Of a stretch of 41,162 bases of DNA, positions 41-35,785 are shown piece after piece. Origin of the DNA: Tissierellia bacterium (GTDB taxonomy: Bacteria > Bacillota > Clostridia > Tissierellales > Tissierellaceae); NCBI GenBank assembly GCA_012728125.1, contig JAAYFT010000140.1:1-41162 (forward strand), written 5' to 3'. Within the stretch, counting starts at the first letter, position 1; each line of letters opens with the position of its first letter. The notes under the pieces were generated by a model that made no database searches, was not told where the DNA came from, and was given only the letters and a program-made list of their open reading frames with translations. The position numbers and the translations under genes were made by a program.

Positions 41-1693
41 TAATTATACTTTCTTTTCTCTCCGAACAATTCGTCCTTAGTATACATACCTATCTTATAT
101 ATATGGTCTGCAATTCTCTCCAAATGACTAATGATATCTATGTATATAACTCCAGCATCTATACTACATTGACCCTTATTAAGCCTGTCTAGGTGATTTT
201 GTTGAAAACTTTCACATAATTCATCTATTTTATTTTCCAGTTTCTTAATATTAACTATGCTCTTAGGGTCTCTTTTCCTTAATGTTGAAATTGTATAATC
301 AAGCATTTCTAATATATTCTTTTCCAGTTCCTGTAATTCCTCTATGGCCATATGTGAAAAGGGTAGTCTGCCGTCTATCTTTTTATTGGTAAGGGATACA
401 ATTTCAATTATCCTATCTCCTGACCTTTCAATATTATTTATACTGCTTATCATGGCTGGTACCATTGTAGATTGGCTTTCCGTTAACTCCCGCTTTGAAA
501 TCTCCACAATATAGGTAGTAAATTCCTTTTGCATTTCATTTATTATGTACTCATTATCAGATATGGCCGCCACCTTTTTAGGATCTTCATTATAAATCAA
601 TTCCATTACATCTTTTATCATGGTTTTAAGTATTTCCATTCCCCTAATAAGTTCATTTCTAGCAGCTTCTAAAGAAGCCACAGGCTTATCTAAAAGTAAT
701 TTGTTTAGTAGGGCTTTTCCATTTACCTTTTCTGACTTGCTCCTTACAATCTTATAGAGGAAATCGACATAGTATCTTGTAATAGGTAAAAATAATACTG
801 CACTTAGTAGATTAAAAATAGTGTGTGAATTTGCTATGTATACAGATATATCAGGGTCAGCGTGGAAGTATTCTGTCACAAATACTACTATTTTCAAAAA
901 TAGTGGTATTACTAACCAGGTTAATAAAACACCAAATACATTATATAGGGTATGGCCCCAAGCTGTTCTTCTTGCATTGGCATTCCCTGTCAAACTAGCC
1001 ATCTGAGCAGTAACACAAGTACCTATATTGTCCCCAAGCATCAAATATATGGCAGACCTTAAATCTATTAGGCCTGCTTGGCCTAAAATCATTACCAGGC
1101 CAACTGTAGCAGCACTACTGTGGACCAAGGCAGTTGCAACTATACCTAATAAAACTCCTACTATTGGAATAGAAGCATATTCAGTAAAAAAATGCCTTAA
1201 GGTTTCACTTTGTTGCAAATAGGGAATTCCACCGTTTAGGATTTTAAGACCTAAAAACATCATACCAAAGCCCATTAGGGCTTGACCTATATTTTTTATC
1301 TTTTTATTCTTAGCAATATAGTTTATTCCAAAGCCTATGCCTAGTACTGGAAGAGCGATATCAGTTAGCTTAAATTTAAAGCTAAAGGCCATAAGTTGTG
1401 CTGTTATCGTAGTTCCTATATTAGCACCGTAGATAATCCCCATGGCTTGGGAAAGATTCATTAAACCTGAATTTACAAAACCTACAGTTAAGACTGTAAT
1501 AGCTGTACTGCTTTGGACAATTGCTGTAACTAAGGTTCCAACAAAAAAAGCACTCAAAGTATTGCCAGTTAAAGCTGTGAGGATTTTCTTCATTGTCTCT
1601 CCTGAGGCTTTTTCTAGCCCTTCTCCCATCATGTCAACCCCATACATTAAGAGAGCAGTTCCCCCAATAAGACCAAATATTAACTCTTCCATT
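40..1693 (-). CDS. Na/Pi cotransporter family protein with C-terminal PhoU-like domain
   Basis: Predicted membrane protein of 550 residues in the NptA/YjbB-type Na+/phosphate cotransporter family. The N-terminal ~330 residues hold two related hydrophobic repeats, each with the family signature: QSSTA near residue 60 and HSSAA near 191. The C-terminal ~210 residues are charged and helical, like PhoU, which in this family is thought to couple transport to phosphate status. An upstream ATG at 1755 would add 21 residues. The ATG ending at 1693 was chosen because GGGGG lies 7 nt before it and the extra leader is uncharacteristic. It is a single gene with its own terminator, downstream of the tRNA operon's terminator. 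Phosphate as substrate is inferred from the family. Confidence 0.88.
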
Positions 1694-1791
1694 TTAATAC
1701 CCCCGGTATAAAATTTTAGAAATCCTCTATTAATAAATAATCCTTTCGCTTTCATTTTATCAATAAGTTAAATTAAAAACAATAATAGTTA

Positions 1792-34800: not shown

Positions 34801-35549
34801 GCTTTTTGGAATACTTCCTTATACTTGCCTTCTTCTATGGCAATATCTGTTATTTCAGTCATAAAGGTAGTATGTCTACAATGGTCTGACCAGTAGGTGT
34901 CTATTAGCTTTAATTCTGTAATGGTTGGGTTTCTCTTTTCATCATTTTTGAAATATTCTTGACAAAACTTTAAGTCATCTAAGTCCATGGCTATTCCATA
35001 TTGGGACTTAAAGCCTTTTAATTCTTCTTCATTGAAATCTATAAATCCATCTATTACTTCAACATCTCCTCTTGCTTCCTCTTCTACTATAAACTCAAAA
35101 CTATCTATGGGGACTTCCTTCATTTCGATTGGGTTTATATAATAGGCCTTTATTTTTTCCAAGTCCTCATCTGAGATGTTTTCTAAAAGGATTACCTTTG
35201 AATTTTGAACCAAAATATCCTCTTTATTAGTTAAAATTCTAATTAATTGATTTGCAGCATCTTCTCTTTGATTATATTGGCCCTTGTGATATTCAACTCT
35301 AAATAGCTTTTCATTTTCCTTAATGGGAAGCTTGTTCTCATATAAATTATCCAAAACTTCTTCGTAGAGTATTTCTTCAACTATCCTTTCCTTGTCTTCC
35401 TCCGATACATTGATTAAATCATATAGGTTTACAACCCTTACCTTCCTTAAGCTCTCTATACCTAAGTAATCCCTAAACTCTTTTAGCAAATTCTTTCCTT
35501 CCGTGTTGTAGTCTTCCTTCTTCTCTATGAAGATCCTCTTGTAATTCAC
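31869..35549 (-). CDS. purL: Phosphoribosylformylglycinamidine synthase, single-chain, with degenerate glutaminase domain
   Basis: 1226 residues, the long PurL form (N-terminal PurS-like part, two AIR-synthase-like halves, C-terminal class I glutaminase). The synthase part has the expected HNHPTEMEPFGGASTCLGG, GGRTGRDGLGGAVGSS and IGGKDSMSGTF. In the glutaminase domain (~980-1226) the catalytic residues are gone. The nucleophile motif reads LGIGAGF where LG(V/I)CNG is expected, so Cys is Gly1091. The motif for PHPER reads SSIDR, so His is Ser1197 and Glu is Asp1199. SHGEGR reads ASKEGK. The domain fold seems kept, as PurL needs it structurally. GTG at 35549 is chosen because AGGAGGG lies 5 nt before it; the in-frame TTG at 35564 has none. 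Confidence 0.94.
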   Translation of the reverse strand: MNYKRIFIEKKEDYNTEGKNLLKEFRDYLGIESLRKVRVVNLYDLINVSEEDKERIVEEILYEEVLDNLYENKLPIKENEKLFRVEYHKGQYNQREDAANQLIRILTNKEDILVQNSKVILLENISDEDLEKIKAYYINPIEMKEVPIDSFEFIVEEEARGDVEVIDGFIDFNEEELKGFKSQYGIAMDLDDLKFCQEYFKNDEKRNPTITELKLIDTYWSDHCRHTTFMTEITDIAIEEGKYKEVFQKAIEEYIKSREYVYENRQRPISLMDLATINMKEIRKKGLLDDKEETDEVNACSVEIDVDIDGRNEKWLLMFKNETHNHPTEMEPFGGASTCLGGAIRDPLSGRAYVYQAMRITGASDPRQSYEDTLPGKLPQRKITKLAKDGYSSYGYEIGAATGYAREIYDEGYVAKRMELGALVAAAPREAVYRGKAEAGDLVILVGGRTGRDGLGGAVGSSKEHTEESLHTSAAEVQKGNPAIERKIVRLFRKPEVSKMIKKCNDFGAGGVSVAIGELADGLFIELDKVPLKYPGLDGTEIALSESQERMAVVIDSKDLDKFLSHCRDEDVEATVVAKVTEERNLKMVWKGKTIVNIKRDFLDTNGIRKKSKVNVTMPMDGSYLDEIPSHIKDKDIKEAFIENLKDINIASQKGLIEGFDHSVGGSTVLMPLGGKYKLTPAEGMAAKIPVLEGETNTCSLMTYGFEPKLSKWSPFHGGYYAVIESIGKIVAMGGSYKNIRLTFQEYFERLGQDESKWGKPFAALLGAFLVQKNLDIPSIGGKDSMSGTFEDIDVPPTLVSFAVTTEKVQNIISSEFKKPNSTVALIKLDIDEKGMVDFEQLKSNYALVKELVDEGKIISATTVKYGGLARAIGEMALGNKIGFKFNEISKEELFRPLPGSLVVEFNGQVPSKLKEKALSSVIELGTTIDKEEILIGGEVIELDTLIEAYEKPLDEVFPVCKSKDNFENIDYTKGSRITRKIKIAKPKVLIPIFTGSHGEYTMEESFRGAGANVETLVFKTLSLKDMEDSYKVLAEKIKECQILGLANGALLGDEPETGGKLLKLLFNNPYVKEALDNHINNDDGLILGIGAGFTALIKLGYISPSAYITGNDSGEFISTMVNVRVSSNLSPWFSQMKVGDVYSVPLASKEGKIILDKPMDNGQIATQFVGENPTGSAFGIEAMTSLDGRVLGTISSIDRVGKDLYKNINILGQHKIFQSGIKYFD

Positions 35550-35561
35550 ATTAACCCTCCT

Positions 35562-35617
35562 CAAAAAGTTAAATTAAGCCCAGTTGGGTAGGCGAAGCGA
35601 AACCTACCCGACTGGGC
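35562..35617 (-). terminator. Regulated terminator of the tandem riboswitch
   Basis: On the minus strand GCCCAGTCGGGTAGG pairs with CCTACCCAACTGGGC (one mismatch) around a 10-nt loop, followed by TTAATTTAACTTTTT just before the purL ribosome site. Its first four bases, GCCC, are also the 3' strand of the last ykkC helix, so aptamer folding and terminator exclude each other. Confidence 0.85.
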
Positions 35618-35716
35618 TTTTATCCCTTCGGTGTAATACTTCATGCAAAAAACACATAAAGTATCTGTACCGCTCGGTCCTGCAGGAGTTTTCCTCGGAT
35701 CCCTAGGTACACTTTC
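35612..35716 (-). ncRNA. PRPP riboswitch aptamer (ykkC subtype 2b)
   Basis: Directly follows the guanine aptamer. ykkC-fold hallmarks in order on the minus strand: GTGTACCTAGGGATCCGAGG, then GGACCGAGCGGTACAG, a variable stem ATACTTTATG...CATGAAGTAT, and finally ACACC-x-AAGGGATAAAAGCCC. GTGTA and TACAC close the first helix. ykkC subclasses bind guanidine, ppGpp, PRPP or ADP-type ligands. PRPP is chosen because of the purine operon and because tandem guanine-PRPP switches are known (Breaker group). PRPP binding should hold GCCC away from the terminator and switch purL on. Confidence 0.82.
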
Positions 35717-35785
35717 ACTCATAGTTAAATGATTTTCGGTCATTTAGTAGATACGCCCCAACCATATTATGGGACTTATATGAGT
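35717..35785 (-). ncRNA. Guanine riboswitch aptamer (purine class)
   Basis: 69 nt on the minus strand with all three helices. P1 is ACTCATA/TATGAGT. P2 is GTCCCA/TTGGGGC capped by TAATATGG, P3 is TAAATGA/TCATTTA capped by CCGAAAA, and the junctions are GTATCTAC and AACTAT. The loop sequences are those that form the P2-P3 kissing contact. The base that pairs with the ligand (C74 in xpt numbering; here at 35724) is C, which specifies guanine or hypoxanthine rather than adenine. It sits directly before the ykkC-type aptamer. Confidence 0.9.

Follow-up and report, generated by a model that had tools for sequence, protein, structure and literature searches.

An operon for purine synthesis lies on the minus strand of a 41,162-nt stretch of DNA from a Tissierellia bacterium (below, the window means this whole stretch), and a tandem aptamer element stands 5' of it. 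An earlier note had read this element as guanine and PRPP riboswitches that together make a rare two-input gate. Three questions follow: which ligand each aptamer recognizes, how two aptamers could govern a single operon, and how unusual such an arrangement is.

Layout of the regulatory element and its operon

On the minus strand, a promoter, the tandem aptamers, and a terminator precede the run of purine genes in that order:

35847-35819 (-), putative sigma-70-type promoter (TTGACA at 35847-35842, 17-nt spacer, TAATAT at 35824-35819)
35785-35717 (-), guanine-class purine aptamer (RF00167), with P1 formed by 35785-35779 and 35723-35717
35718-35717 (-), two nucleotides common to guanine P1 and PRPP P0, read from the sequence
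35718-35597 (-), predicted PRPP aptamer (ykkC subtype 2b), with P0 formed by 35718-35713 and 35602-35597
35619-35576 (-), predicted terminator hairpin, arms AAGCCCAGUCGGGUAGG and CCUACCCAACUGGGCUU, loop UUUCGCUUCG, tail UUAAUUUAACUUUUU
35549-31869 (-), purL, large FGAM synthase (TIGR01857, 1556 bits), probably starting with GTG at 35549, after AGGAGGG
31857-31375 (-), purE (TIGR01162)
31359-30019 (-), purF (TIGR01134), Cys1 changed to Ser
29779-25306 (-), purM, purN, purH, and purD, from the operon gene annotation
25012-23342 (-), fhs, formate-tetrahydrofolate ligase, the final gene of the run

The promoter matches the consensus at 10 of 12 positions. Since a consensus scan found one such site against a mean of 1.1 in shuffled sequence, the match by itself is weak, and the promoter call rests mainly on its position immediately 5' of the guanine aptamer. 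The Shine-Dalgarno sequence AGGAGGG lies about 15 nt 3' of the terminator hairpin, before purL. The span originally proposed for the element, 35612-35785, does cover the region from guanine P1 to G96 of the PRPP aptamer, but the functional unit is longer: it takes in the promoter at 35847-35819, the 3' strand of PRPP P0 down to 35597, and the terminator down to 35576. Directly upstream, on the same strand, genes for an encapsulin shell protein and an EncFtn-like ferritin cargo occupy 37018-35860 (-) of the window; no more than about 15 nt separate the encapsulin stop codon from the beginning of the tandem's promoter, with no obvious terminator between them.

The genes run purL-purE-purF-purM-purN-purH-purD-fhs. 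The unusual PurF and PurL to which the earlier note had drawn attention are borne out by their sequences. PurF begins M-S-G-L-V-G, where Ser takes the place of the catalytic Cys1, and PurL reads GIGAGFTAL for GICNGFQAL, its nucleophilic Cys being changed to Gly (codon 32279-32277), and TGSHGE for PGTNCE. The loss of the PurL cysteine is common to six near relatives (L002-L007), in four of which the PurF cysteine is also absent, while L002 and L006 keep it; the PurL cysteine is absent as well from L010, L041, and L045, perhaps by separate losses. Because the glutaminase cysteines of both enzymes are gone, the sequences suggest that purine synthesis may be fed by free ammonia. The purC gene of this genome lies outside the operon, at C147:2592-3227; in relatives, purC precedes purL.

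Specificity of the first aptamer

In an Rfam search of the 41 kb, the Purine family RF00167 matched 35803-35702(-) with 85.2 bits (E = 3.8e-14), far above the gathering score of 37, in agreement with the initial description of a full guanine-class aptamer. Members of the purine aptamer class carry C at position 74 when they bind guanine and U when they bind adenine. The equivalent nucleotide in the window, which would pair with the ligand, is C35724, and the core residues U22, U47, and U51 are present; C at this position therefore indicates guanine rather than adenine. Judged by these residues, the first aptamer is a guanine-class purine aptamer, and adenine specificity is ruled out by C at position 74. 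The same position is C in 90 of 93 tandem relatives. J2/3 of the window aptamer has A in place of the usual U48, a change also seen in several other tandem relatives.

Specificity of the second aptamer

The ligand of the second aptamer is less readily assigned, as ykkC scaffolds are closely alike. When 271 nt were searched, the guanidine-I model RF00442 (ykkC) matched 35717-35607(-) with 51.4 bits (E = 1.3e-8), under its gathering score of 63, and the Rfam search of the element matched no PRPP family. This subthreshold score could not settle the subtype, which was decided by residue tests and a separate PRPP model. The latter was built from 17 sequences from outside the window's class or order, with the window left out; a model that included the window (R1) was excluded from the evidence on it. 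The earlier note had made its assignment depend on a significant match to a PRPP model, and such a match was found: the window element scored 94.7 bits (E = 2.7e-23), a value that is not wholly independent, since a model that included the window had served to find the 17 sequences in the first place.

Residue positions were numbered as in Thermoanaerobacter mathranii, transferred via the construct primers and the contact list of PMC6031431. The PRPP contact residues A5, G6, G48, C77, C78, A103, G104, and G105 are all kept. The equivalent of A101 is G, which is allowed, as this position is a purine in more than 75% of sequences. Position 49 is C, a pyrimidine where guanidine-I RNAs have A, and position 96 is G35612. 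The ykkC P1-P3 scaffold is present, together with the conserved 5' and 3' tails that form P0. P0 comprises six pairs, and in six relatives 100% of its cells are paired; for P0 and the other helices together, 98.4% of cells pair across six related sequences, with nine both-sided pair changes against a shuffled mean of 4.7. The genes downstream lead de novo purine synthesis to IMP, a context that fits PRPP as the ligand.

Could this RNA instead sense a different ykkC ligand? If it were a ppGpp aptamer (subtype 2a), a guanine-ppGpp tandem would tie the operon to the stringent response. A single substitution, G96A, turns PRPP into ppGpp specificity (PMC6031431), and some singlet relatives do have A, C, or U at position 96. 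In subtype 2a, however, position 96 is absent or is A, C, or U, whereas the window and all 99 tandem relatives have G there, and the genes 3' of the element are purine rather than amino acid genes; we regard ppGpp sensing as extremely unlikely. A guanidine-I riboswitch, to which the RF00442 match would point, deserves almost no credence: besides the low score, C replaces the conserved A46 and P0 is present. The same genome also has a genuine and separate guanidine-I riboswitch on another contig (C191:950-1055, L112), with the GAGA signature, which scores 86.3 bits in RF00442 and 44.9 bits in the PRPP model. The sequence evidence thus supports a PRPP aptamer of subtype 2b as the second element. 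All subtype-marking residues are present, in line with the subtype named by the initial reading, and its guanine and PRPP assignments pass every available sequence test, whether of residues, models, or gene context.

A single terminator under two aptamers

The aptamers had been described as adjoining with no spacer. They do adjoin, but this understates the arrangement, for guanine P1 and PRPP P0 overlap by two nucleotides, 35718-35717, so both helices cannot form completely together. In 81 of 93 tandems, the nucleotide equivalent to 35717 is able to pair in either helix, through the combinations G-C-G, G-U-A, A-U-A, G-U-G, and A-U-G. Downstream, the 5' arm of the terminator holds the 3' strand of PRPP P3 along with G96, and its loop holds the 3' strand of P0. 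No terminator was seen between the two aptamers, leaving the tandem with a single one; a consensus scan gave one terminator-like site, which lies within the 3' arm of the hairpin at 35619-35576.

Computed energies, which neglect tertiary contacts and cotranscriptional order, were -62.4 kcal/mol for the OFF form, -36.3 kcal/mol for the ON form without ligand, and -28.8 kcal/mol for the terminator alone; by this calculation the unbound full-length RNA favors termination. In ligand-free equilibrium folding of the two aptamers, neither P1 (0.05) nor P0 (0.01) was dominant, and this calculation is uninformative about the gate.

We conclude that the element is very probably a single-terminator, two-aptamer riboswitch that would act as an IMPLY gate on transcription of the purine operon, reading guanine as an end product and PRPP as a precursor of purine synthesis. 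Binding of guanine would hold guanine P1 shut and withhold the two shared nucleotides from PRPP P0; the PRPP aptamer would be weakened, the terminator would form, and the operon would be off. Bound PRPP would lead to the formation of P0 and P3, with the 5' arm and loop of the terminator occupied, and RNA polymerase would be expected to read through even with guanine present. The analysis itself provides the specificity residues of both aptamers, the 2-nt overlap and covariation, the overlap of the terminator with P3 and P0, and the gene context; to these, ligand binding, termination, and the directions of response can be transferred by analogy from Bacillus megaterium codA, which was assayed, and from the T. 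mathranii crystal structure.

It is also conceivable that the aptamers are separate switches, or that they control translation, without a common transcription terminator. The U tract of the terminator is interrupted (UUAAUUUAACUUUUU), and the Shine-Dalgarno sequence and purL start lie close to the hairpin. On the other hand, the Shine-Dalgarno sequence lies outside the hairpin, no second terminator lies between the aptamers, two nucleotides are common to both, and the layout is the same as that of the assayed B. megaterium example (PMC5912903). Separate or translational control is, in our estimate, very unlikely beside the shared-terminator gate. A search of the genome for PurR found none above the curated cutoff (best partial match, 72 versus 258.7 bits), so that purine synthesis may be controlled chiefly by RNA.

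Second switches and stub hairpins in relatives

About 20 genomes carry two PRPP switches separated by 0.8 to 2.4 kb. Where the sequence was followed from one to the other (L091, L100, L105, and L088), the order is promoter, guanine-PRPP tandem, purC-like open reading frame, second PRPP switch, and purL-like open reading frame. The guanine aptamer of the second switch is degenerate in L100, is reduced to approximately the P2 hairpin in L091, L105, and L145, and is missing in L174-L176 and L184; in L088 its ligand-pairing position is U. This substitution of U for the ligand-pairing C occurs in two purL-proximal tandems, at 1438-1502 of L088 (the same place as L005) and at 1632-1700(-) of L084 (the same place as L003). 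The L088 aptamer has an otherwise unchanged core and, by its residues, would be read as an adenine type beside a PRPP aptamer. As L084 also changes U51, decay is likelier there than an adenine-PRPP tandem, and its purine aptamer may be decaying. A pattern of paired switches with degenerate guanine aptamers was not found in the literature searched, which most subscription papers lay outside.

Singlet PRPP riboswitches offered a second comparison. Of the 53 non-redundant singlets that carry G96, 17 are preceded by a short hairpin with a 3' arm that stops precisely on P0 nucleotide 2 (L151, L161, L169, L178, L180, L186, L189, and L228 among them), the criteria being a stem of at least 5 pairs with at least 2 G-C pairs and a loop of at most 8. 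Hairpins ended at each other position in zero to two singlets, except for eight that ended one nucleotide before P0 nucleotide 2. Over 200 shuffles of the upstream sequence, such stubs numbered 0.85 on average and 4 at most. The thresholds were set after examples had been seen, though the peak stayed at this position for both stem lengths and both loop limits tried; most of the stub singlets come from one family and are not independent. One example, GCTCA-TTT-TGAGC followed directly by GAAAG, resembles a guanine P1 without its core, and the GCTCAT arm of guanine P1 recurs in many stubs. No mention of an anti-P0 hairpin was found in a literature search of the same limited reach.

The exact 2-nt overlap, seen in 93 of 99 tandems, and the singlet stubs both point to competition for P0 as the switching step. 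We see about an even chance that the two P0 nucleotides which guanine P1 also uses serve as a general control point, with the stubs of singlets as a hard-wired anti-P0 hairpin, the guanine aptamer of tandems as its ligand-gated version, and the relatives with a second, purL-side switch as apparent intermediates. The comparison with relatives offers a testable account of the gate's working and evolution and hints at how one-input versions are built.

Comparison with known guanine-PRPP tandems

Rarity, as claimed for such gates by the earlier note, does not hold: 127 guanine-PRPP tandems had been published (PMC5912903) and later 192, classed as IMPLY gates (PMC9481103), and our sample, limited in size, yielded 187 non-redundant PRPP-model matches, 99 of them with a purine aptamer upstream. 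The PRPP model matched in 129 of 249 genomes of the window's order (E up to 1e-4) and in 215 of 398 genomes of a phylum sample (E threshold 1e-7), counts that come from samples of limited size and take in some other ykkC subtypes. Tandems lie 5' of purL in the close relatives L002-L006, and nearly unchanged copies occur in L083 and L093, both genomes from the window's genus.

The B. megaterium tandem is turned off by guanine and on by PRPP, with PRPP dominant (Sherlock et al. 2018, PMC5912903). Exclusion between P0 and P1 was proposed for the guanine-PRPP tandem (Knappenberger et al. 2018, PMC6031431, PDB 6CK5), while a later review still termed the switching step not established (PMC9481103). 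As in the tandem of Sherlock et al., a guanine aptamer in the window stands directly 5' of a subtype 2b ykkC RNA, with one terminator and purine genes to IMP, and nothing essential differs; here the genes start with the large purL, and purC is elsewhere in the genome. With the T. mathranii tandem (PMC6031431) the window element shares the mutual exclusivity of P0 and P1, the contact residues, and the 5' end GUGAAAGUGUACC; it differs in having G for A101 and in one P0 pair, which is U-G in the window (UUUCGC) and U-A in T. mathranii (UUUCAC, read from its primers). Compared with L268, a Thermoanaerobacter-like relative, its P1b and P2 arms also differ. The PRPP aptamer and terminator logic are the same in singlet PRPP riboswitches, which, unlike the window, have no guanine aptamer. 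The window element is thus an intact, ordinary example of the guanine-PRPP gate already described in 2018, and adds one more well-formed, all-RNA logic gate, in a Tissierella-group anaerobe without detectable PurR.
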